Part shown: positions 2,093 to 12,284 of the stretch, one piece after another
Position numbering within the stretch: the stretch's first letter is position 1
How the letters are laid out: every line of letters starts with the position of its first letter
NCBI GenBank assembly: GCA_937927885.1
Contig: CALEZJ010000374.1
Location: 1 to 12,293, forward strand
DNA from: an uncultured Paracoccaceae bacterium
GTDB taxonomy: Bacteria; Pseudomonadota; Alphaproteobacteria; Rhodobacterales; Rhodobacteraceae
Direction: 5' to 3'
DNA: 12,293 nucleotides
Program-made: the position numbers and the translations under genes
The notes under the pieces: generated by a model
Told to the model about the DNA's origin: nothing
Databases searched by the model: none
The model's input: only the letters and a program-made list of their open reading frames with translations

Positions 2093-2974
2093 TCAGAGTT
2101 TCAACAGTCTCTTTGCGTTCTCTTTCAGGATGAGGGGGCGCACCTCGTCCCGAAAATCCGATTTTTCGAAATCCTTCAGCCAGCGGTCCGGCGTGATCGC
2201 GGGCCAGTCCGAGCCGAACAGCATCTTCTTCTTCAGCATCGTGTTGGCGTAGCGTACCAGTATTTCCGGGAAATACTTGGGCGACCAGCCGGAAAGGTCG
2301 ATATAGACGTTCGGCTTGTGCTGGCAGACGGACAGGGCCTCTTCCTGCCATGGAAAGCTGGGATGGGCGAGGATGATCGGCATGTCGGGAAAATCGACTG
2401 CCACATCATCGAGATACATCGGGTTCGAATACTTCAGCCGCATCCCCATGCCGCCGCGCATTCCCGAACCGACACCGGTCTGCCCGGTGTGAAAGAGGCT
2501 GATCGCGCCTTCGTCGGCAATGGCCTCGTAGAGGTCATAGGCCATGCGGTCGTTGGGGTAGAACCCCTGCATCGTCGGGTGAAACTTGAAGCCCTTGACC
2601 CCGAAGTCGCGCACCAGTCGCCGCGCCTCACGCGCGCCCATCTTGCCCTTGTGGGGGTCGATCGAGGCGAAGGGGATCAGGATGTCGTCGTTCTCGGCGC
2701 AGATCTGCGCGACTTCCTCGTTGTGATAACGCTTGAACCCGGTCTCTCGTTCGCCATCGACGGGAAAGATCACCGCGGCGATCTTGCGCTCGCGGTAATA
2801 GGCGGCGGTTTCCTGCACGGTCGGCAGCATCCCGGCCGCCCCGGCGGGGTTCTTGAAATAATTCGCCATCCCCGCCTGGAATTCGTTGTAGCCGTCATCG
2901 CGGCAGGTGTCGCAGGGCTCCTCGGCATGGGTGTGAATGTCGATGGCGACGATTTCGTCGAGGTTCACGGGCAT
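2093..2974 (-). CDS. couO: Amidohydrolase-family hydrolase, CouO-like (4-hydroxyphenyl-beta-ketoacyl-CoA hydrolase)
   Basis: This 293-residue protein belongs to the amidohydrolase superfamily (Amidohydro_2 type TIM barrel). Metal-ligand candidates are HTH at residues 14-16 (DIHTHAEE), His162 (FHTGQTG), His204 (LAHPSFPWQEEAL) and Asp256 (FGSDWP); GFKFHP at 128-133 holds a lysine at the barrel. The overall pattern (FASIDPHKG, YPNDRMAY, YIDLSGWSPKYFP) recalls the CouO/PhdC hydrolases of actinobacterial p-hydroxycinnamate clusters. Those replace a thiolase and split the aryl beta-ketopropionyl-CoA to an aryl carboxylate and acetyl-CoA. The neighbours fit: crotonase, MarR, divergent CoA synthetase and SDR. 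The start overlaps the end of marR by ten bases (2965-2974) with AAGGA upstream, showing tight coupling. Superfamily is certain; the specific reaction is inferred from remembered homologues and context. An unrelated decarboxylase or hydratase of the same superfamily is the main alternative. Confidence 0.8.
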   Translation of the reverse strand: MPVNLDEIVAIDIHTHAEEPCDTCRDDGYNEFQAGMANYFKNPAGAAGMLPTVQETAAYYRERKIAAVIFPVDGERETGFKRYHNEEVAQICAENDDILIPFASIDPHKGKMGAREARRLVRDFGVKGFKFHPTMQGFYPNDRMAYDLYEAIADEGAISLFHTGQTGVGSGMRGGMGMRLKYSNPMYLDDVAVDFPDMPIILAHPSFPWQEEALSVCQHKPNVYIDLSGWSPKYFPEILVRYANTMLKKKMLFGSDWPAITPDRWLKDFEKSDFRDEVRPLILKENAKRLLKL

Positions 2975-3444
2975 GCGGCGGGTTCCTTGATCAGGGCGAT
3001 CTTGCGGATCAGCGTCAGGAGGGTTGCGTATTCATCCGCGCTCAGGCCGACGCGTTCGGCACAGTGCACAGTCAGAAAGGCGGGGCGGTGGCGCTCCAGA
3101 TGCGCCTTGCCTGCCGGGGTCAGTTCCAGATGGACCGAACGGCGGTCCGAGGCGGGCACCTCACGCCGCACCAGCCCGTCGCGCACCATGCGCTGCACCA
3201 GTTTGGTCATGTGCGCGGGCTTGATGTTCAGCGTCGCGGCCAGCGTGCCCTGGCGGACCTGCGGGTTAATGTCGATCACCCAGAGCACGGTCATCTCTCC
3301 CGGGCGCACATCGGTGCCCTCGAAAGCCTCGAAGAACTGGCCGAACAGGCGGACCTGCGCCAGACGCATCAGAAATCCGATGGACTCGGCCAGATCGCCA
3401 AGGTCCACCTCGTCGCTCAGCGTGCCGGCAAAGGGCGCGTTCAT
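2965..3444 (-). CDS. MarR-family transcriptional regulator (hydroxycinnamate-CoA responsive type)
   Basis: This 159-residue protein is a winged-helix MarR regulator. The helix-turn-helix lies at roughly residues 62-87 (QGTLAATLNIKPAHMTKLVQ). It is followed by the wing, with the diagnostic ASDRRSVHLELT motif near residues 97-108. N- and C-terminal helices would form the dimer interface. It sits four bases after the crotonase stop and overlaps the amidohydrolase start, so it is co-transcribed with pathway genes. MarR regulators of phenylpropanoid clusters (CouR, PhdR, FerC and relatives) repress until a hydroxycinnamoyl-CoA thioester binds. I infer the same here, with the duplicated element at 4275-4339 as target. 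The start at 3442-3444 has only a weak ribosome site and probably relies on coupling. Confidence 0.92.
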   Translation of the reverse strand: MNAPFAGTLSDEVDLGDLAESIGFLMRLAQVRLFGQFFEAFEGTDVRPGEMTVLWVIDINPQVRQGTLAATLNIKPAHMTKLVQRMVRDGLVRREVPASDRRSVHLELTPAGKAHLERHRPAFLTVHCAERVGLSADEYATLLTLIRKIALIKEPAACP

Positions 3445-3448
3445 GGTG

Positions 3449-4222
3449 TCATGCGTTCGGGTTGGAGACCTTGCCCGCCTTCTTTGACAGGAAGGCGTTC
3501 AGGCGCTCTTCGGCCTCGGGCGAGGTGGCGGTGAACGAGGCGATGAAGCTCTCGACAAACAGCCCGTCCTCGGTGCCCATGTCGTTGATGCGCGGCAGGG
3601 CGTGGATGATGGCATAGGTCGAGATCGGCGCGTTGGTCGCGGCGTGGCGGGCCAGGGCGATGGCCTTGTCCAGCGCCTGACCTTCGTCGACGACATAGTT
3701 GACCAGGTTCCAGCGTTCCGCGGTGTCGGCATCCACGGAACGCCCGGTCAGCATCATGTCGGTCATGCGCGACACGCCCATCAGCCGTGCCGACCGCACG
3801 CTGGCGCCACCGCCGACAAAGATGCCGCGCTGGCCCTCGGGCAGGGCGAAGAACGCCGTGCGATCCGCCACCCGCACATGCAGCGACGAGGCCAGTTCCA
3901 GCCCGCCGCCCACCACTGCCCCGTGCAGCGCGCCGAACCACGGCAGCTTGCCGCGCTGGATGCGGGCAAAGACCTCGTGCCAGCGGCGACTGCCATGCAC
4001 GCCTTCGAACGGGGTCTTTTTCACATGTTCGGCCAGATCGAGCCCGGCGCAGAAATGCGGGCCATGGCCGTGGATCACCGCCGCCTTGCAGCGCGCTTCC
4101 ACCTGAGTGATCACGTCGTTCAGTTCTTCGATGAAGGCATCCGAGATCGCATTGCGCTTTTCGGGCCGGTTCAGGCCGACGACGGCCACATCGCCCTGGA
4201 ACTCGAGTGTCAGATATTTCAT
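3449..4222 (-). CDS. Crotonase-superfamily enoyl-CoA hydratase (probable hydroxycinnamoyl-CoA hydratase)
   Basis: This 257-residue enoyl-CoA hydratase/isomerase has its family features in order. LNRPEKRNA lies at 17-25, HFCAGLDL at 56-63 supplies an oxyanion-hole element, HGAVVGGGLELA covers 100-111, and LPEGQRGIFVGGG covers 127-139. Both catalytic glutamates of classical hydratases appear present, Glu109 and Glu129, with the same 20-residue spacing as Glu144/Glu164 of rat crotonase. The likely role is to add water to feruloyl- or coumaroyl-CoA. If the pathway is beta-oxidative it stops at the beta-hydroxyacyl-CoA; a lyase activity giving vanillin (HCHL type) cannot be excluded. The start at 4220-4222 matches the usual N terminus (MKYLTLEF). 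The same frame stays open upstream across the promoter repeats and past the divergent gene's start, which is not credible as coding. It is first gene of the leftward operon. Confidence 0.9.
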   Translation of the reverse strand: MKYLTLEFQGDVAVVGLNRPEKRNAISDAFIEELNDVITQVEARCKAAVIHGHGPHFCAGLDLAEHVKKTPFEGVHGSRRWHEVFARIQRGKLPWFGALHGAVVGGGLELASSLHVRVADRTAFFALPEGQRGIFVGGGASVRSARLMGVSRMTDMMLTGRSVDADTAERWNLVNYVVDEGQALDKAIALARHAATNAPISTYAIIHALPRINDMGTEDGLFVESFIASFTATSPEAEERLNAFLSKKAGKVSNPNA

Positions 4223-4267
4223 CGCAGGCCCCGCCGTCTTGCCGAATGTTGCGCCGATTCTGTGACG

Positions 4268-4296
4268 AATATCGGCGGAAAAAGTATCCGTGTAAA
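4268..4296 (-). promoter_or_regulatory. Candidate sigma-70 promoter of the leftward crotonase operon
   Basis: On the minus strand a -35-like TTTACA (plus 4291-4296) and a -10-like GATATT (plus 4268-4273) are separated by exactly 17 bases, about 45 bases upstream of the crotonase start. The -35 box lies inside the first copy of the duplicated element, so a regulator bound there would block polymerase. The box matches are five of six and four of six. This is a reasonable but unproven assignment; no equally good promoter was found for the rightward gene. Confidence 0.45.
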
Positions 4297-4339
4297 CAAT
4301 TTCCTCGCTTTGCGGAAAAATAGTTTCCGTGTAAACAAT
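4275..4339. repeat. Tandem duplicated element in the divergent promoter, candidate MarR operator pair
   Basis: Two near-identical copies lie in direct orientation, at 4275-4300 and 4312-4339. Each begins GCGGAAAAA and ends TCCGTGTAAACAAT (exact 14-base matches at 4287-4300 and 4326-4339, 39 bases apart). They differ by a two-base insertion and one substitution. Within each copy is a semi-palindrome, GTATCCGTGTAAAC at 4284-4297 and GTTTCCGTGTAAAC at 4323-4336, fitting GTTTnCnnGnAAAC, the kind of dyad MarR dimers bind. One copy covers the leftward -35 box; the other lies just upstream of the rightward gene's ribosome site. The repeat is directly seen; the regulator assignment is inferred. Confidence 0.75.
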
Positions 4340-4344
4340 CTCGC

Positions 4345-4350
4345 AGGAGG
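4345..4350 (+). promoter_or_regulatory. Ribosome binding site of feruloyl-CoA synthase
   Basis: A perfect AGGAGG sits eight bases before the ATG at 4359. It fixes the start of the synthase and lies only five bases after the second copy of the duplicated promoter element, so a protein bound there would sit very close to the translation start. Confidence 0.85.
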
Positions 4351-4358
4351 ACTTACCC

Positions 4359-6173
4359 ATGACAGAATCACCGCTGCGCCCGGTCAAGCTGTGGCGTCCT
4401 GACGTGCGTTGGACCGACCGCGAGGATGGTTCGATCCTGGTCTGGCAAGAGGGGGCGCTGGGCGCCTATCCCGACCGGATTTCCGACCGGATCCATCATT
4501 GGGCCGGGCTGGATCCAGACCGGATCTGGATGGCCGAGCGCGACGCTGCGGGCGCCTGGGTCAAGGTGAGTTATGGCCAGATGCTGGCCCGGGTCCGGGC
4601 GATCGGGCAGCGGCTTTTGGACATGGGTCTGTCCACCGACCGCCCGCTGCTGATTCTGTCGGCCAATTCGATTGCCCACGCCCTGATGGCTCTGGGCGCG
4701 CAATATGTCGGCATTCCCTCGGCGGCGATTGCGCCCGCCTATTCCACCTCGTCCGGCGAATTCGAAAAGCTGCTCTCGGTGCGCGACCAGATCACCCCGG
4801 GGGCGGTCTTTGCCGATGATACCGCGCCTTTCGCCCGCGCCCTGTCGGAGGTGCTGGCGGGACTGCCGGTGATCTGCGTGACCGGCGCGGGGCAGGCGCT
4901 GGACGCGGTGCTGGCAACCCCCGTCACCCCTGCCGTCGATGCGGCCAATGCCGCGACCGGGCCCGATACGGTGGCCAAGTTCCTGTTCACCTCGGGCACC
5001 ACGGGGTCGCCCAAGGCGGTGATCCAGACCCAGCGCATGATGTGCGCCAACATGGAACAGATGACCGATTGCTATGCCTTCCTGCGCGACGAGGCACCGA
5101 TCATTCTGGACTGGGCGCCGTGGAACCACGTCGCGGCGGGGAACCTGGTGTTCAACGCGGCGATCTACAACGGCGGGACGTTCTATATCGACGGCGGGCG
5201 CCCGACGCGCGACCTGATGCACCAGACCATCGCCAACCTGCGCGATGTGCCGACGAACTGGTATTTCAACGTGCCCTTTGGCTACGAGATGCTGGTCGAG
5301 GCGATGCGCAAGGACCCCTCGCTGGCCAAAGCGTTCTATGGCCCGCTCAAGCTGATGTACTACGCCGGCGCGGCCATGGCGCGCCACACCTGGGATGCGC
5401 TGGAAGAACTGTCGGTGCAGGCCACCGGCGAGCGGGTGCAACTGGGGACCGGCCTTGGTGCCACCGAAACCGCACCGTTTTCACTGTTCAACACCGACCC
5501 CGACGCCGAAGCGGGATGCATCGGCGTGCCGGCCAAGGGCATCACGCTGAAACTGGTCCCGGTCGAGGGCAAATGGGAAGTGCGCCTGAAGGGTCCGAAT
5601 GTGACGCCAGGCTATTGGCGCAATGAAAAACTGACGCGCGAGGCGTTCGACGAGGAAGGCTTCTATTGCCTTGGCGATGCGCTGCGTTTTGCCGAGCCGG
5701 GCAACCCGGCCAAGGGGTTCTTCTTTGACGGGCGTGTGGCCGAGAACTTCAAGCTGTCGACCGGAACCTGGGTGTCGGTGGGGGCGCTGCGCGCGAAGCT
5801 GACCGATGCCCTGGGCGGCCTTGCGCGCGATGCGGTGATCGTGGGCGAGGGCGAGGACAGTCTGGGAGCGTTGCTGGTGCCTTTCCGCCCGGCCATCGAG
5901 GCGCTGGTGGGGCAGGCGGGGTTGAGCGATGCCGAACTGTGCGCGCATCCCGCCTTGCACGCGGCGATTGCCGAGCGGCTGAAGGCCTATAACGCGACGG
6001 CGACGGGATCCTCGCTGCGCGTGCCGCGGGTGATGATGCTGGTCGAACCGCTGAATCTGGACCGGGGCGAGGTGACCGACAAGGGATCGGTCAATCAGCG
6101 GGCGGTGCGCAGCCATCGGGCCGATCTGGTGGCGGCGCTTTATGCGGGCGATGCCCGGGTCATCAGGGGGTAG
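4359..6173 (+). CDS. fcs: Feruloyl-CoA synthase (ATP-dependent hydroxycinnamate-CoA ligase)
   Basis: This 604-residue ANL-superfamily adenylating enzyme activates ferulate or related acids to the CoA thioester through an acyl-AMP, in the cytoplasm. Motifs in order are the phosphate loop TSGTTGSPK at 211-219, GLGATETAP at 365-373, YCLGD at 436-440, DGR at 457-459 and NFKLSTG at 463-469. The C-terminal TDKGSVNQRAV holds the catalytic lysine at about 575. The length, the long N-terminal extension, the WAPWNHVAAGN segment (252-262) and the NFKLSTGTWV junction are typical of bacterial feruloyl-CoA synthases rather than generic fatty acyl-CoA ligases. It diverges from the crotonase across a 136-base promoter and is followed two bases later by the SDR, so the two form an operon. 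Substrate within the hydroxycinnamates is not resolved by sequence alone. Confidence 0.92.
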   Translation: MTESPLRPVKLWRPDVRWTDREDGSILVWQEGALGAYPDRISDRIHHWAGLDPDRIWMAERDAAGAWVKVSYGQMLARVRAIGQRLLDMGLSTDRPLLILSANSIAHALMALGAQYVGIPSAAIAPAYSTSSGEFEKLLSVRDQITPGAVFADDTAPFARALSEVLAGLPVICVTGAGQALDAVLATPVTPAVDAANAATGPDTVAKFLFTSGTTGSPKAVIQTQRMMCANMEQMTDCYAFLRDEAPIILDWAPWNHVAAGNLVFNAAIYNGGTFYIDGGRPTRDLMHQTIANLRDVPTNWYFNVPFGYEMLVEAMRKDPSLAKAFYGPLKLMYYAGAAMARHTWDALEELSVQATGERVQLGTGLGATETAPFSLFNTDPDAEAGCIGVPAKGITLKLVPVEGKWEVRLKGPNVTPGYWRNEKLTREAFDEEGFYCLGDALRFAEPGNPAKGFFFDGRVAENFKLSTGTWVSVGALRAKLTDALGGLARDAVIVGEGEDSLGALLVPFRPAIEALVGQAGLSDAELCAHPALHAAIAERLKAYNATATGSSLRVPRVMMLVEPLNLDRGEVTDKGSVNQRAVRSHRADLVAALYAGDARVIRG

Positions 6174-6175
6174 GA

Positions 6176-6869
6176 ATGCAGATCGAGGGGATTTCGGCCT
6201 TTGTGACCGGTGGGGGCTCGGGCCTTGGCGAGGCGACGGCGCGCATGCTTGCGGCGCGCGGGGCAAGGGTGGCGGTGTTTGATCGCGACGCGGCCAAGGG
6301 CGCGGCCATCGCGGCGGCCATTGGCGGGATGGGGCTTCAGGGGGATGTGACCTCGGAAGCCGAGGTGGCTGCGGCGCTGGACGCGGTCGCGGCCGCGCAG
6401 GGCGCGCCCCGCATCGTGGTCAATTGCGCCGGGATCGGGACGGCGGGCCGCGTGCTGGGTCGTGACGGGCCGCTGCCGCTGGAGGCTTTCGAGCGAACGG
6501 TCAAGGTGAACCTGATCGGCACGTTCAATGTGCTCAGGCTGGCCGTGGCGCGGATGGCGGCGCTGGAGCCGATGGAGGATGGCGAGCGCGGCGTGGTGAT
6601 CAACACGGCGTCGGTCGCGGCCTTTGACGGGCAGATCGGGCAGGCGGCCTATTCGGCCTCCAAGGGCGGGATCGTCGGGATGAGCCTGCCCATCGCCCGC
6701 GAACTGGCAAGGGTCGGCGTCCGGGTCAATGTGATCGCGCCGGGGATCTTTCTGACGCCCTTGCTGTTCACCTTGCCCGAGGAGGCGCAAAAGGCATTGG
6801 CGGCCGACATTCCGTTTCCCCAGCGGCTGGGCGATCCGGCGGAATTCGCGGATGCGGAAAGCGAAGTGA
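6176..6869 (+). pseudogene. SDR, type II 3-hydroxyacyl-CoA dehydrogenase, 3' end disrupted by an internal deletion
   Basis: The first 225 residues are a convincing NAD-dependent short-chain dehydrogenase of the HSD17B10/type II 3-hydroxyacyl-CoA dehydrogenase kind. TGGGSGLG lies at 11-18, the NAD-type Asp at 36, NCAGI at 83-87, Asn112, Ser146, and YSASK at 159-163. It should oxidise the beta-hydroxyacyl-CoA made by the crotonase. Homology stops after GDPAEFA (ends 6850), where the family continues with about 23 residues, including an ENPxLNGEVIRLDGA block, before ending in RM plus a few residues. That block is missing here. Codons for RMRKAK and a TGA stop occur at 6849-6869, in the +1 frame. 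The original frame instead runs open through two hairpins into gntR. I infer a deletion of about 68 or 71 bases, removing the last helix and strand of the Rossmann fold, so the enzyme is probably inactive. A sequencing or assembly error is the alternative. Confidence 0.78.
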
Positions 6870-6872
6870 GGC

Positions 6873-6905
6873 GGCGCGCGGCCCCCGTCGAGGGGACCGC
6901 GCGCC
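6873..6905 (+). terminator. Hairpin 1 after the ancestral SDR stop
   Basis: GGCGCGCGG at 6873-6881 pairs perfectly with CCGCGCGCC at 6897-6905. After one mismatch, CCCC (6883-6886) pairs with GGGG (6892-6895) around a five-base loop. It begins three bases after the TGA at 6867-6869. That placement supports 6869 as the original end of the SDR gene. There is no T-run, as is common in GC-rich alphaproteobacteria. Confidence 0.6.
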
Positions 6906-6928
6906 GACGGGCTGCCGCCCGCACCTGC

Positions 6929-6985
6929 CCCAAAGGGGGCACGCCCCCTTTGGGAAATCCCGTGAGTATTTCCGGCAAGGTGGAA
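6929..6985 (+). terminator. Hairpin 2 with Rhodobacterales-type GAGTATTT tail
   Basis: CCCAAAGGGGG at 6929-6939 and CCCCCTTTGGG at 6944-6954 form a perfect 11-base stem with a four-base loop. The segment at 6963-6985 reads GTGAGTATTTCCGGCAAGG followed by TGGA. From general familiarity, a GC-rich stem followed by GAGTATTT and GGCAAG-like sequence is a frequent end-of-gene element in Rhodobacteraceae. It probably terminates the synthase-SDR transcript before gntR. The stem is seen; the family-wide recurrence is recalled, not computed. Confidence 0.6.
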
Positions 6986-7010
6986 CACGGCAATTGCCTT
7001 GGGGCTTGGG

Positions 7011-7033
7011 ATGTATACATTGGATGTATACAC
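7011..7033. promoter_or_regulatory. Paired GntR operators upstream of gntR (ATGTATACAT and ATGTATACAC)
   Basis: A perfect 10-base palindrome, ATGTATACAT, lies at 7011-7020. A one-mismatch copy, ATGTATACAC, lies at 7024-7033, centres 13 bases apart. They sit directly before the gntR ribosome site (GAGGGG, 7034-7039) and start codon. The TGTATACA core fits the short GT-n-AC dyads bound by FCD-subfamily GntR repressors. The position implies autoregulation. A third perfect copy is in front of ligM. Confidence 0.8.
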
Positions 7034-7042
7034 GAGGGGCCC

Positions 7043-7777
7043 ATGAGCGAATCGAAGAGCACCAGCCTGACCAAGCGCGCCGCCTATGAGCTGCGCCAGC
7101 GGATCTTTCATGGCGGATTGCCGGGCGGAACACGTCTTTACGAGGTGGCACTGTCCGAGGATTTGCAGATCTCGCGCACGCCGGTCCGCGAGGCTATGTC
7201 GCGATTGGCCGAGGAAGGTCTGCTGGAGCGCGCCTCTGGCGGCGGGTTCCAGGTCCGGGCCTTCAGTCTGGGGGATGTGTCCGATTCCATCGAGTTGCGC
7301 GGCGTTCTGGAGGGGACGGCAGCGCGCATGGCGGCCGAGCGTGGCGCCGACGGACCGGGGCTGACGGCAGTGCGCGAGGTGTTGGCCCGGCTGGAACGCT
7401 GTTTCGACGGGCCGGGCAATACAGTCGATTTCGACGCCTACAGCGAGTTGAACGCGCTGTTTCATTGTCGACTGGCCGAACTCTGTGGCAGCGCGGTGAT
7501 CCTGCGCGAACTCGAGCGGGTCAAGTCGCTGCCTTTTGCGTCGCCCTCGGCCTTTGTGCTGGGGCAGGCGGATGACGCGCGGTCGCACCGGTCGCTGGTG
7601 GTGGCGCAGGAGCAGCACCGCGCCCTCGTGCAGGCCATCGAGCGGCGCGAGGGCGCGCGCGCCGAAGCCCTGGCGCGCGAACATGCCCGCATCGCGCGGG
7701 GCAACCTGGAATCGGTTTTTGCCGCCGATGCGCGGACGCCCGAGGCCATGCCGGGCATGGCGCTGATTGTGCGGTGA
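7043..7777 (+). CDS. GntR-family (FCD subfamily) transcriptional regulator, VanR-like role
   Basis: This 244-residue protein has an N-terminal winged helix (about residues 7-72), with the GntR recognition segment ISRTPVREAMSRLAEEGLLE at 43-62. Its C-terminal all-helical FCD effector domain shows candidate metal/ligand residues Asp131, His141 (ALFHCRL), a histidine in QEQHRAL and one in REHARIA. The start at 7043 has GAGGGG three bases upstream and gives the normal family N terminus. The frame is open far upstream, into the SDR, only because of the SDR frameshift. Palindromes before this gene and before ligM imply that it represses itself and the O-demethylase. By analogy with VanR regulators of vanillate demethylase genes, vanillate or a similar aromatic acid is the likely inducer (inference). 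Confidence 0.93.
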   Translation: MSESKSTSLTKRAAYELRQRIFHGGLPGGTRLYEVALSEDLQISRTPVREAMSRLAEEGLLERASGGGFQVRAFSLGDVSDSIELRGVLEGTAARMAAERGADGPGLTAVREVLARLERCFDGPGNTVDFDAYSELNALFHCRLAELCGSAVILRELERVKSLPFASPSAFVLGQADDARSHRSLVVAQEQHRALVQAIERREGARAEALAREHARIARGNLESVFAADARTPEAMPGMALIVR

Positions 7778-7800
7778 GGGAATGAATACATGAAATGCAG

Positions 7801-7825
7801 GAAATCGCCTGTGTGGGGCGATTTC
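7801..7825 (+). terminator. Hairpin after gntR
   Basis: GAAATCGCC at 7801-7809 and GGCGATTTC at 7817-7825 form a perfect nine-base stem with a seven-base loop, starting 24 bases after the gntR stop. It lies just upstream of the proposed ligM promoter, so it probably separates the gntR transcript from ligM. No T-run follows. The right arm is part of an 11-base word, GGCGATTTCAC, that recurs inverted at 9404-9414. Confidence 0.55.
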
Positions 7826-7827
7826 AC

Positions 7828-7856
7828 TTGCAATGATGTGTGTCTCTTCGCATTAT
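7828..7856 (+). promoter_or_regulatory. Candidate ligM promoter
   Basis: TTGCAA at 7828-7833 and CATTAT at 7851-7856 are separated by the ideal 17 bases and lie 33 bases upstream of the ligM start. The -10 box overlaps the GntR palindrome that begins at 7855, so binding there would directly block open-complex formation. The boxes match the sigma-70 consensus only in part (four of six each). Confidence 0.55.
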
Positions 7857-7864
7857 GTATACAT
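7855..7864. promoter_or_regulatory. GntR operator upstream of ligM (ATGTATACAT)
   Basis: This perfect palindrome is identical to the copy at 7011-7020 in front of gntR. It overlaps the proposed -10 box and lies ten bases before the ribosome site. Finding the same 10-mer at two promoters 840 bases apart, one belonging to the regulator itself, is strong evidence for a shared operator. Confidence 0.8.
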
Positions 7865-7873
7865 TCTTGCTTT

Positions 7874-7881
7874 GGGAGGAG
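7874..7881 (+). promoter_or_regulatory. Ribosome binding site of ligM
   Basis: GGGAGGAG lies seven bases before the ATG at 7889 and decides this start over an in-frame ATG at 7790. The upstream start would place the gntR hairpin, promoter and operator inside the coding region. Confidence 0.85.
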
Positions 7882-7888
7882 AATCGAT

Positions 7889-9301
7889 ATGTCGGCAACC
7901 AGCCTGGCAGCCCTGATCGCGCAAAAAGGTGGCAACCCCGTCAAGATGTTGCGCGATTCCAAGATCGGCATGTATGTCTATCCGGTCGTCGCGCCGGAGT
8001 TCTCGAACTGGCGCGTCGAGCAGGAGGCCTGGCGCCATAGCGCCGTGCTGTTCGACCAGTCGCACCACATGGACGAGGTGATCGTCGAGGGTCCGCAGGC
8101 CACCGAATTCCTGGCCCACCACGGCATCAACGCCTTTTCGAATTTCGAACTGAACCGTGCCAAGCACTACGTCCCCGTCACGCCGCACGGCCATGTGATC
8201 GGCGACCACATCAGCTTCCGCGAGCGCGAGGACAAGTACGTTCTGGTGGGCCGCGCGCCGACCTCGAACTGGCTGATGTTCGCCGCCAGCTATGGCAACT
8301 GGAACGTCCGTCTGCGCTATGACCCGCGTTCGCCCAGCCGCCCCGAGGGCGAGCGGGTGCTGCGCGAGCATTACCGCTTCCAGATTCAGGGTCCCGATGC
8401 GCCGAAGATCTTTGAAAAGATGAACGGCGGCCCGATCCCGGACATCAAGTTCTTCCATGTCGACTGGATCAACATCGGCTCGAAAAAGGTGCAGGCGCTG
8501 CGTCACGGCATGTCGGGTGCGCCGGGCCTGGAAATCTGGGGTCCCTACAAGGACAAGGATTACATCCATTCGACCGTGCTGCAGGCCGCGCGCGACGCGG
8601 GTGTGAACCTGGTGCAGTGCGGCAGCCGCGCCTATTCGACCAACACGCTGGAATCGGGCTGGATTCCCTCGCCGCTGCCGGGCATCTATACCGGCGATGG
8701 CATGCTGGCCGATTACCGCGAGTGGCTGGGCACCGAGATGTACGAGGCGGCCGGTTCGATCGGCGGGTCGTTCGTCAGCGACAACATCGAGGATTACTAC
8801 GTCAACCCCTTCGAACTCGGCTATGATTTCTATATCGGCTGGAAGAAGAAGGACTTTATCGGCAAGGCCGCGCTGGAAAAGATCAAGGCCGAAGGCGCCA
8901 AGCGCAAGAAGGTCACCTTCGAGTGGAACCGCGACGATGTGCTGAAGGTGATCGCCTCGGCATTCGAGCCGGGCATTCCCTACAAGTGGATCGACTTCCC
9001 GCAGCCCAACTATGCCTCGTCGAGCGCCGACATGGTCGTCAATGACGCGGGCAAGATGGTCGGCATGAGCATGTTCAACGGCTATTCGTTCAACGAGCGT
9101 TGCGTGCTCAGCCTTGGCGTGGTGGCCAACGACGTGCAGGTCGGCGACATCCTGACGCTGAAATGGGGCGAGCCGGAAACCACCGGCAAGACCTCGACCG
9201 AAAAGCACCGTCAGGCCGAAATCCGTGTGCGTGTTGCCCCGACGCCCTACTCGGCCGAGGCGCGCACCAACTATGCCGACAGCTGGCGCACGCGCAGCTG
9301 A
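7889..9301 (+). CDS. ligM: Tetrahydrofolate-dependent aryl O-demethylase, LigM/DesA type (aminomethyltransferase fold)
   Basis: This 470-residue protein is essentially the length of Sphingobium LigM. It shows the GcvT/aminomethyltransferase-like fold of the LigM/DesA family. The enzyme moves the methyl of a methoxy aromatic acid (vanillate, 3-O-methylgallate or syringate) to tetrahydrofolate, giving the phenol and 5-methyl-THF, without oxygen or an iron-sulfur reductase. Visible landmarks are VLFDQSHHMDEV near 53-64, the FQIQGPDAPKIFEKMNGG block near 164-181, GMSGAPGLEIWGP at 207-219 and GSRAYSTNTLESGWIPSPLP at 245-264. Tyr31 and Tyr249 lie where LigM has its functionally important tyrosines (Tyr31 and catalytic Tyr247). 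This gene is downstream of an FCD regulator with a shared operator and next to a ferulate pathway that would yield vanillate. Vanillate is therefore the best-guess substrate; syringate or 3-O-methylgallate remain possible. Confidence 0.88.
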   Translation: MSATSLAALIAQKGGNPVKMLRDSKIGMYVYPVVAPEFSNWRVEQEAWRHSAVLFDQSHHMDEVIVEGPQATEFLAHHGINAFSNFELNRAKHYVPVTPHGHVIGDHISFREREDKYVLVGRAPTSNWLMFAASYGNWNVRLRYDPRSPSRPEGERVLREHYRFQIQGPDAPKIFEKMNGGPIPDIKFFHVDWINIGSKKVQALRHGMSGAPGLEIWGPYKDKDYIHSTVLQAARDAGVNLVQCGSRAYSTNTLESGWIPSPLPGIYTGDGMLADYREWLGTEMYEAAGSIGGSFVSDNIEDYYVNPFELGYDFYIGWKKKDFIGKAALEKIKAEGAKRKKVTFEWNRDDVLKVIASAFEPGIPYKWIDFPQPNYASSSADMVVNDAGKMVGMSMFNGYSFNERCVLSLGVVANDVQVGDILTLKWGEPETTGKTSTEKHRQAEIRVRVAPTPYSAEARTNYADSWRTRS

Positions 9302-9427: not shown

Positions 9428-9489
9428 ATACTGGACCGGTCTTTCGGGTTTGAAACTGGGGCATGGCCCCGATCTGTGGGAGGATCACA

Positions 9490-10479
9490 ATGAGCTATCT
9501 TACCTCTTTCCGTGCCTTTGGCGCCGCCGCCGCACTGGCCGTGACCGTCTCGGCGCCTGCGATGGCGCAAGAGCTGCGCCTGGCCCATTGGGTGCCCCCG
9601 GCGCACACGCTGACCGCCTCGACCATCGAGCCGCTGCAGGCTGCGGCCTCGGCCGCGGGTCTGAACATCCGCGTCTATCCGGGCGGTGAACTGGGTGCCG
9701 GTCCGCTGGAGCAGTATGTCCGCGTTCTGCAGGGCGTCGCCGACATCGTCTGGGGGCTCCAGGGCTACAACTCGTCGCAGTTCCAGCGCACGATGATCTC
9801 GGAACTGCCGGGCGTTCTGGCCGAGGGCCAGTCGGGCTATGACGCGATCTGGCGCGCCTATGATGCGGGCCTGCTGAACGGCGAATTCCCGGGCACCGTG
9901 CCGCTGGCGCTGTGGACCTCGGAACCCAACGTGCTGATCATGCGCGGCCGCAACGTGCGTCTGCCCGGGGACCTCGCGGGGCTGAAGATCCGTGTGTCGG
10001 GTTCGGTCGCAGGCTCGATCGTCGAGGCGCTGGGCGCGACCCCGGTGCAGATGCCTGCGGGCGAGATCTACAACGCGCTGCAGACCGGCCTGATCGACGG
10101 GCTGATCACCGGGGCTTCGGCGATCGGCGACTTCCGTCTGGACGAAGTGGCGGACAGCTACACGATCGGCATGCCTCTGGGCCACATCAGCTTTTATCTG
10201 GTAATGAACGAAGGCGCGTACAACGGCCTTTCGGCCGAGCACCGCGCCGCCATCGACAGCGTTGCCGGTCGCACGCTGTCGGCCTCGGCCGAAGCGGGCT
10301 GGAACGCGCGCGCCACGCAGGTGATCGAGCAGATCACCGCCGCCGGTGACAACACGATCATCAACCTGACGGACGAGGAAATCGCCGCCTGGGCTGCGAT
10401 CACCCTTCCGGTGCGCGATCAGGTCGTGGCGACCATCGACGGCGGCGCCGCCGTTCTGGCCGCAATGCAGGGCAACTGA
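9490..10479 (+). CDS. dctP: TRAP transporter substrate-binding protein DctP (TRAP 2)
   Basis: This 329-residue periplasmic binding protein has a signal peptide at 1-26 (cleavage after APAMA, before QELR). The mature start ELRLAHWVPPAH is classic for DctP proteins. LKIRVSG carries Arg168, the usual carboxylate-binding arginine, and the TGLIDGLITG segment after it is also typical. The start at 9490 is chosen because GGGAGG (9478-9483) lies six bases upstream; an in-frame ATG at 9463 would bury the signal peptide. It is clearly not a copy of TRAP 1 DctP, which is longer and differs throughout. Position after ligM suggests a methoxylated aromatic acid such as vanillate as ligand (inference). Confidence 0.94.
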   Translation: MSYLTSFRAFGAAAALAVTVSAPAMAQELRLAHWVPPAHTLTASTIEPLQAAASAAGLNIRVYPGGELGAGPLEQYVRVLQGVADIVWGLQGYNSSQFQRTMISELPGVLAEGQSGYDAIWRAYDAGLLNGEFPGTVPLALWTSEPNVLIMRGRNVRLPGDLAGLKIRVSGSVAGSIVEALGATPVQMPAGEIYNALQTGLIDGLITGASAIGDFRLDEVADSYTIGMPLGHISFYLVMNEGAYNGLSAEHRAAIDSVAGRTLSASAEAGWNARATQVIEQITAAGDNTIINLTDEEIAAWAAITLPVRDQVVATIDGGAAVLAAMQGN

Positions 10480-10983
10480 GTGCTGCGCGCACTCGATACG
10501 GTTGCGGGCAGGGTCATCGCCCTGTCCGCGATCCTCGGCACCCTCGGTCTGTTGACCGAGGTTGCCGTCATTCTGTCCGACGTGATCATGCGCTATTTCG
10601 GCGCTCCGATCCGGGGCGCGCAGGATGTGGTGCAGATGTCGATGGTCGTGCTGGTCTTTGGCGGCATGGCCCTGTGCGACCGCCAGGGCGGGCACATCGC
10701 CATCGACCTGTTCGAGCGCCATTTCCCCGCCTGGGCGAACCGGCTGGGTGACATTCTATCGGCGCTTCTGGGAGCGGTGATCTTTCTGGGCATCGCCTGG
10801 ACGACCTGGGAAAGCTCGATCCTGTCGCGGATGTTGCGCTCGGCCACCAATATCATCGGCCTGCCAAAGATCTGGTTTCAGTATTACGTCATCGTCTCGT
10901 GCGTCATCACGGCCTTTGGCATGACCCTGCGCGCCATCGTCCTGACCATGGGCGCCCAGATTTCCAGGGAGTCCCGGGCATGA
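10480..10983 (+). CDS. dctQ: TRAP transporter small permease subunit DctQ (TRAP 2)
   Basis: This 167-residue protein with four hydrophobic segments (about 13-35, 50-68, 90-112 and 130-152) matches DctQ, including VIMRYFGAPIRGAQDVVQM after TM1 and the GGHIAIDLF loop. It starts with GTG at 10480, immediately after the dctP stop with no spacer, and overlaps dctM by four bases. The abutting GTG start implies translation by re-initiation from dctP. This contrasts with TRAP 1, where 72 bases and a hairpin separate the two genes. Confidence 0.93.
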   Translation: MLRALDTVAGRVIALSAILGTLGLLTEVAVILSDVIMRYFGAPIRGAQDVVQMSMVVLVFGGMALCDRQGGHIAIDLFERHFPAWANRLGDILSALLGAVIFLGIAWTTWESSILSRMLRSATNIIGLPKIWFQYYVIVSCVITAFGMTLRAIVLTMGAQISRESRA

Positions 10984-12284
10984 CCGATTTTGCCATTGGC
11001 ATCGTAGGAATGCTGGCGCTGTTCGGCCTGCTGGCGCTGCGCGTGCCGGTCGCCTTTGCGATGTTCGCGGTCGGCTTTTGCGGCATCTGGGCGCTGAACG
11101 GGCTCAGGGCGGCGAAAAGCCTGCTGGCCTCGGAAAGCTTCACGCTGGCCTCGATGCCCGAACTCGTCGTGGTGCCGCTGTTCATCCTGATGGGCAATGT
11201 CGCCTCGGAAACCGGAATGAGCCGAAAGCTCTATGACGCGGCCTATGCCATCGTCGGCCGGGTGCGCGGGGGGCTCGCCAGCGCCACGGTCATCGGCTGC
11301 GGCGGGTTCGCGGCGCTGTCGGGGTCGTCGGTCGCTTCGGCGCTGACCATCGGCCGCGTCTCGCTGGGCGAGATGGAGCGCTACAAGTACGACCACCGTC
11401 TGAGCACCGGTGCGGTCGCTGCCGGCGGAACGCTGGGCATCCTGATCCCGCCGTCGACCGGGTTCGTGATCTACGCGATCCTGACGCAGGAATCCATCGG
11501 GCGGCTGTTTCTGGCCGGGGTGCTGCCGGGACTTCTGCTGCTGGGCATGTTCATCCTGACCATCACGGTGATCTGCACCCTCAACCCCGAGATGGGCCCG
11601 CGCGGCCCGAAAACCACGGTGACCGAGAAACTGCGCGCCTTTGTCGGCGCGGTGCCGGTGGTGGGCGTGATCGTGATGACGGTTGGCGGCATCTACAGCG
11701 GCTTCTTTTCGCCGGTCGAGGCTTCGGCGGTGGGGGCGGGCGCCTTCATCCTGATCGGTCTTGTCACGCGCACGCTGACCCTGCGGGCGTTCTGGGCGGC
11801 GGCGAAATCCTCGGTCGTGACCACCGCCACGGTGATGCTGATCCTGATCGCGGCGCATATGATCAACCCCTTCCTTGCGCTCAGCCATATCCCGCAGGCG
11901 CTGGGGGCCTTCCTGACCGGGCTCGACCTGCCTGCGCTGGCGATCCTTGCGTTGATCCTGGCGACCTACCTGGTTCTGGGCTGTTTCCTCGAAGGCTTCG
12001 CCATGCTGGTGCTGACGATGCCGATCTTTTTCCCGATCATCACGCAACTGGGCTTTGATCCGATCTGGTTCGGGGTGCTTGTTGTGCTGACGCTCGAGAT
12101 GGGCCTCATCTCGCCGCCTGTCGGGGTCAATGTGTTCATCGTCAAATCCGTGGTTCCGCATGTGCCGCTGGGCACGATCTTTCGCGGGGTCATGCCCTTC
12201 TGGCTGGCGATGATCGCAACCCTGGTGCTGCTGGTCGCCTTTCCCCAGATCGCGCTTTACCTGCCAAACACGATGATCCGATGA
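10980..12284 (+). CDS. dctM: TRAP transporter large permease subunit DctM (TRAP 2)
   Basis: This 434-residue, strongly hydrophobic protein of about 12 membrane segments has DctM signatures: RVPVAFAMFAVGF near the start, GCGGFAALSGSSVASALTIG near 105-124, GTLGILIPPSTGFVIYAIL near 150-168, and a C-terminal LTLEMGLISPPVGVNVFIV segment. The start at 10980 is preceded by AGGGAG (10966-10971) and overlaps the dctQ stop as ATGA. It forms the transport channel of the second importer. Its own stop (12282-12284) overlaps another ATG, so the operon probably continues. Confidence 0.95.
   Translation: MTDFAIGIVGMLALFGLLALRVPVAFAMFAVGFCGIWALNGLRAAKSLLASESFTLASMPELVVVPLFILMGNVASETGMSRKLYDAAYAIVGRVRGGLASATVIGCGGFAALSGSSVASALTIGRVSLGEMERYKYDHRLSTGAVAAGGTLGILIPPSTGFVIYAILTQESIGRLFLAGVLPGLLLLGMFILTITVICTLNPEMGPRGPKTTVTEKLRAFVGAVPVVGVIVMTVGGIYSGFFSPVEASAVGAGAFILIGLVTRTLTLRAFWAAAKSSVVTTATVMLILIAAHMINPFLALSHIPQALGAFLTGLDLPALAILALILATYLVLGCFLEGFAMLVLTMPIFFPIITQLGFDPIWFGVLVVLTLEMGLISPPVGVNVFIVKSVVPHVPLGTIFRGVMPFWLAMIATLVLLVAFPQIALYLPNTMIR

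Follow-up and report, generated by a model that had tools for sequence, protein, structure and literature searches.

Ferulate and p-coumarate clusters and the present locus

The ferulate cluster of A. fabrum SpG8-1b is a described system that the locus analysed here resembles. The available excerpts of its description assign to it a synthase (Atu1416), a hydratase (Atu1417), a phenylhydroxypropionyl-CoA dehydrogenase (Atu1415), a beta-keto-thiolase (Atu1421), a folate-dependent vanillate demethylase (Atu1420), and HcaR (PMC7797058). The same excerpts place Atu1419 in the VanR group of GntR proteins and give the palindrome ATGTATACAT as the DNA used with it (PMC7797058).

The window, by which we mean the whole 12,293-nt stretch of DNA analysed (contig CALEZJ010000374.1, from an uncultured Paracoccaceae bacterium), carries a comparable gene set. 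A feruloyl-CoA synthase (FCS)-like acyl-CoA synthetase is encoded on the plus strand directly upstream of an SDR gene (4359..6173; NCBIfam PRK12582, E 1.7e-212, with a score of 707 bits that lies below the model cut-off of 777). On the minus strand are a crotonase/enoyl-CoA hydratase (3449..4387), which matches NCBIfam NF006013 above its cut-off from residue 57 onward and whose true start is probably near 4222; a MarR-family regulator in an HcaR-like position (2965..3444), recognized by weak, below-cut-off family matches and by synteny; and an Amidohydro_2 protein (2093..2974; Pfam PF04909), a candidate beta-keto-acyl-CoA cleaving enzyme whose position suggests that it performs the Atu1421 step. 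A vanillate/3-O-methylgallate O-demethylase of the LigM type lies on the plus strand (7790..9301; NCBIfam NF047885, above cut-off). TRAP transporter genes form two groups, one on the minus strand at 369-2351 (DctQ, DctP) and one on the plus strand at 9463-12284 (DctP, DctQ, DctM), perhaps for the uptake of two substrates.

By family models, the window brings together FCS, enoyl-CoA hydratase, an SDR (here broken), MarR, a VanR-type GntR protein, and a folate-dependent demethylase, the assemblage that the excerpts describe for the A. fabrum type of cluster. This context suggests that the SDR is a phenylhydroxypropionyl-CoA dehydrogenase filling the role the excerpts give to Atu1415. The same gene set occurs in Pararhodobacter zhoushanensis (locus L001), in which all 12 tested window genes were found with their order conserved. 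A five-gene upper block is present in Rhizobium sp. TH2, which a distant plasmid search matched at 70% over 61% of the query, and a near-search of plasmids returned no close copy of the locus, its top match being Paracoccus aestuarii (75% over 33% of the query). Across 394 genomes of one family, the best DNA match was 81%, and the 18 genomes of the genus to which that match belongs yielded six loci with FCS, SDR, GntR, and demethylase genes in the same order. Similarity to L001 suggests that this genus is Pararhodobacter.

Two loci met along the way have arrangements of their own. The FCS-like homologue on the P. aestuarii plasmid p190534 (L081, 7904-9745) is interrupted by an in-frame stop at codon 346, and the annotation splits it into two proteins. 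It has no SDR gene as an immediate neighbor; a 56% homologue of the SDR is found about 7 kb downstream. In another genome (G413; L113, 1399-1535), 136 bases separate the crotonase and GntR genes. This interval contains no N, and both FCS and SDR are absent from their customary position there.

The reading favored here, to which we assign a probability of about 80%, is that a recent and ordinary 68-nt deletion broke the SDR gene of a Pararhodobacter-like ferulate/p-coumarate cluster, leaving a frame that now runs into the vanR-like gene.

A probable 68-nt deletion near the end of the SDR gene

SDR enzymes are marked by a glycine-rich cofactor motif at the N-terminus and a catalytic YxxxK motif. 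The window frame has both, as TGGGSGLG and YSASK, together with a Pfam adh_short match at its N-terminus (E 8e-43), and a protein homologue search aligned it with the homologue P0001 at 93% identity over 225 aa. A preliminary description of this DNA, drawn up from the sequence, had set the start of the gene at 6176, as is confirmed here, and had proposed that a small deletion threw the gene out of frame and left its old stop codon where it was. The retained 5' part, which belongs to the type II 3-hydroxyacyl-CoA dehydrogenase family, occupies 6176..6856 on the plus strand and encodes residues 1-227 without a second frameshift or stop. At residue 228 the frame shifts, and SDR similarity breaks off abruptly after residue 227. 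The abruptness had been described correctly, but the similarity does not end at residue 225 as stated then, since residues 226-227 (DA, in GDPAEFADA) are also identical to P0001. Beyond this point the C-terminal helix and strand and the N-G-E-x-x-R-L-D-G block that characterize the family are lacking; the absence of an LNGEVIRLDGA-type block had been reported before, and NGE-x-x-RLDG is indeed missing in the window.

The surviving 3' end of the gene lies at 6857..6869 on the plus strand, with the old TGA at 6867-6869 now out of frame, and shares an 11-base exact match with the gene end in L001. Of 2000 shuffles of window positions 6850-6899, 4 attained a match of this length to the relatives' gene ends, a figure that takes account neither of the match position nor of the agreement with a 68-nt loss. 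The codons CGG ATG CGG AAA GCG AAG TGA do stand at 6849-6869, one frame over, as first described. Their RM was then taken for the ancestral RM-ending tail, a reading that fails: it derives from the left flank and resembles that tail by coincidence, while the match of the surviving piece begins at the G that precedes AAA. The right part is best read as (G)AAAGCGAAGTGA, in agreement with the ..KAK end of the relatives, whose SDR proteins finish in RLKAK, RMKAK, RLRAK, RLKAR, RMRAK, or RLAPK.

The size of the loss was determined by split alignment, in which every gap from 0 to 90 nt was tried against seven syntenic orthologues (L001, L083, L108, L109, L110, L111, and L126). A gap of 68 nt was best in five of the seven, namely those with a normal gene end. 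Summed over all seven relatives, it scored 551, against 539 for the nearest other gap (18 nt). L108 and L109, in which the old end has been lost and replaced, lend no support: no single gap is prominent there, 68 is absent from the best gaps listed, and other gaps score higher. Measured as far as the old stop, the gene spans 694 nt in the window and 762 nt in the five normal orthologues. Between the two sizes first offered, 68 and 71 nt, only the former stands, because the normal length is 253 aa and the split alignment favors 68; a loss of 71 nt is ruled out by the result in the five relatives. The family length of about 254 residues assumed at first was close, the actual value being 253 aa in 110 of 120 protein homologues among the matches listed and in five of the seven syntenic orthologues.

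The junction falls within 6853..6863 on the plus strand, best at 6857/6858. With scores summed over the five relatives, the right part begins at 6857 or 6858, and with scores summed over all seven, at 6854; taken singly, L001 gives 6853-6854, L111 and L126 6854-6858, L110 6857-6858, and L083 6862-6863. The breakpoint predicted at 6848-6850 was accordingly a few bases too far upstream, so that the 68-71 base gap expected there in an alignment with orthologous loci was recovered with respect to its size in five of seven relatives but near 6857. About one base (G) at the junction could belong to either flank, and the junction is not bordered by a direct repeat in the window. Near the corresponding site, L001 contains imperfect repeats of 19 nt (74%) at a spacing of 78, and none at a spacing of 68.

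No counterpart of the lesion was encountered in the relatives. Every one of the 125 fetched loci that match the SDR (some of these loci overlap) keeps the missing C-terminal block, as do all seven syntenic orthologues. A scan of genome_contigs gave at least 584 confirmed relatives, and in each of the best 80, which are included in the 125, the SDR measures 251-259 aa with a normal end block. The protein homologue search, in which 8000 candidates limited to about 124-394 aa were scored, returned as its shortest homologue among the matches listed a protein of 239 aa, flagged as partial. A shared 3' end in relatives had been named at the outset as a finding that would speak against a deletion, and none of the relatives searched has it. 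The gene therefore fits a pseudogene formed by small deletion, that is, one with a frame-breaking lesion that its orthologues lack. On the sequence evidence, the deletion is well supported and ordinary in kind.

These observations also bear on whether the loss belongs to the genome at all. The true genome could have an intact 253-aa gene, with the loss introduced during sequencing or assembly or contributed by a minority variant of a mixed sample; such an account draws on the fact that the lesion is known from one assembled sequence, that no identical protein occurs among the matches listed, and that the fetched relatives are uniformly intact. The junction itself speaks against it. With about one base of clear microhomology and no flanking direct repeat in the window, collapse of a repeat has no obvious cause, and a clean loss of 68 nt is unlike a base-calling slip. 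We regard an artefact or a minority variant as unlikely.

Intergenic repeats, a probable operator, and the fused frame

The intergenic stretch that follows the old stop (6868..7000, plus strand) contains two hairpins and matches dispersed repeats; among the 18 genomes of one genus, 16 have such matches, 1 to 30 apiece. Its inverted repeats lie at 6872-6906 and 6929-6954; the first arm begins at the third base past the TGA, in line with the hairpin described earlier as starting three bases after that codon. A consensus scan of the plus strand found no intrinsic terminator in 6700-7100. A limited literature search found nothing to the point on the dispersed repeats, or on genus, pseudogene, and pathway together.

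Repeats of this kind may have touched the same gene elsewhere. In L108 and L109, the N-x-E-x-x-RLDG block is kept and the last five codons have given way to repeat-like sequence, yielding proteins of 301 and 264 aa, and the very end of the SDR therefore tolerates change. The 264-aa protein P0018 of Pararhodobacter marinus (8 member sequences) has an SDR end of the same kind. These cases raise the possibility that in the window, too, the 3' end was remodeled by a dispersed repeat invading or recombining at the stop codon, as seems to have happened in these two orthologues, and the repeat matches in the window do begin at about the old stop. The old gene end, however, survives between junction and repeat (13 nt, including TGA), which means that the repeat is not at the junction, and remodeling of this sort is judged highly improbable for the window.

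Downstream of the repeats, two TGTATACA palindromes form a probable VanR operator (7009..7032, plus strand), which resembles the site of Atu1419, given as ATGTATACAT in the excerpted source (PMC7797058). Such palindromes precede the GntR gene in all seven orthologous loci. The gene behind them (7043..7777, plus strand) has its own ATG at 7043 and encodes a 244-aa VanR-like regulator with Pfam GntR and FCD domains, which together with the putative operator of the ATGTATACAT type agree with the VanR group as the excerpts present it. Its closest counterpart among the matches listed, P0241, is a separate 244-aa protein with 97% identity.

The preliminary description overlooked that the shifted SDR frame meets no stop until 7777 and enters the GntR gene in frame. 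The result is an open frame of 533 aa (6176..7777, plus strand; ORF translation and Pfam) composed of SDR residues 1-227, a 62-residue linker, and the complete GntR/FCD regulator. As a caution for annotation, a plain ORF call yields a 533-aa SDR-GntR protein that is probably no evolved fusion. Of 5000 shuffled versions of the intergenic region, 935 left the linker open; with frames matching one time in three, a fusion of this kind would arise by chance in about 6% of cases, which is unusual and not remarkable. A natural near-fusion occurs at this position in L108 (1501-2406), where the 301-aa SDR frame extends through the palindromes to a stop that shares bases with the GntR start codon (ATGA).

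The fused frame might nevertheless be functional, as an SDR-VanR protein with a regulatory and perhaps an enzymatic role, or as a means by which translation through the hairpins ties vanR and the demethylase to transcription of the upper pathway; either is compatible with a deletion. The whole linker is open, a complete GntR gene is entered in frame, and the SDR remnant is not plainly decayed. Set against this, an open linker is common by chance, the linker is read from repeat-like intergenic DNA, and the GntR gene has retained its start and operator. Among the matches listed, no SDR-GntR fusion was found, and no protein match covered more than 53% of the 533-aa query (best 120 of 546). Aligning the fusion together with both families gave SDR rows of 24-27% identity, and this alignment was set aside as faulty. 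A functional role for the fused frame is therefore very unlikely. More specifically, there is a faint prospect that a working fusion, or translated hairpin read-through, subjects the vanillate repressor and the demethylase to control by the ferulate operon; if true, this would amount to a one-step rewiring of the upper and lower pathway. Synthesis of VanR probably still starts at 7043, controlled by the regulator's own operator. The explanations considered for the window need not exclude one another, and a fusion or the involvement of a repeat could accompany the deletion.

Age, expected effect, and comparison with described systems

The deletion itself, the favored reading, is probably recent, with constraint on the remnant at most slightly relaxed. 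Recency is suggested by how little the remnant has decayed. For the SDR, omega ranges from 0.14 to 0.20 (mean 0.17) in pairs of the window with its orthologues and from 0.07 to 0.19 (mean 0.12) in pairs without the window. For FCS, over its last 480 codons, the corresponding means are 0.22 and 0.19; for the GntR gene (L083 omitted) they are 0.21 and 0.16. The remnant is thus nearly as constrained as its neighbors, which fits a recent event but would also fit retained function. It differs at 2 of 124 positions invariant in 38 close homologues (253 aa, more than 78% identical, taken from the 120 matches listed). An old pseudogene is less likely than a recent one, given 227 codons with no extra lesion and little decay.

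Some counts lean the other way. At 179 positions invariant in the seven orthologues, the window SDR has 12 private changes, whereas each orthologue has 0-2 in a comparison of eight sequences in which the window is the most distant; this is a point against recency. In a relative-rate count of the window against P0001 with 11 outgroups, the window had more private changes in seven, fewer in three, and an equal number in one, as illustrated by 9 to 2 (window to P0001) with P0002 and 4 to 6 with P0008. The best homologues among the matches listed stand at 93% for the SDR (P0001) and 97% for GntR (P0241), a difference that could reflect relaxed constraint if P0001 and P0241 come from one strain.

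The deletion would have removed the codons of about residues 228-250 of the phenylhydroxypropionyl-CoA dehydrogenase, after which translation would pass the old stop, cross the intergenic hairpins, and enter the vanR-like gene in frame. In the AlphaFold2 model of P0001, the affected segment contains or cuts into a helix (221-233) and a strand (241-243), and the lost part comprises most of that helix together with the strand; confidence in the model is middling (mean pLDDT 81, 63 for residues 241-250, and 32 residues under 50). In a set of 36 sequences, ten residues of the segment show conservation of 90% or more, namely V228, F230, Y236, N238, E240, R243, L244, D245, G246, and R249; N238, E240, R243, D245, and R249 are invariant. 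Judged from the model, the window SDR, deprived of the closing helix and strand of its fold, is likely to have lost activity.

Without this enzyme, the pathway would be expected to stop at the beta-hydroxyacyl-CoA unless another SDR acts, so that the oxidation step would be either blocked or supplied by a paralogue elsewhere. At least one further SDR match at 67-69% DNA identity occurs in each of the six genomes of the genus that have the locus, and the step may therefore be bypassed. The locus offers a well-resolved candidate natural knockout within a lignin-phenolics pathway. If the knockout is real, one would expect either impaired growth on ferulate and p-coumarate while the beta-hydroxy intermediate builds up, or else replacement by a paralogous SDR.

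Compared with type II 3-hydroxyacyl-CoA dehydrogenases of known structure (PDB 4o5o, 1so8), the intact homologue P0001 matches 4o5o over its full length (residues 1-253, E 1e-75), whereas the window SDR is without about residues 228-250 and a proper end. The locus of P. zhoushanensis has the same 12 tested genes as the window in the same order, and differs in its intact SDR (253 aa) and in the intergenic sequence that follows it. The likeness to the Atu1415 cluster, as far as the excerpts describe it, is one of function rather than alignment: both have FCS, the hydratase, MarR, a VanR-group GntR protein with a palindrome of the ATGTATACAT type, and a folate-dependent vanillate demethylase, while the window differs in the presence of TRAP genes and in an SDR gene that is 68 nt short and out of frame.
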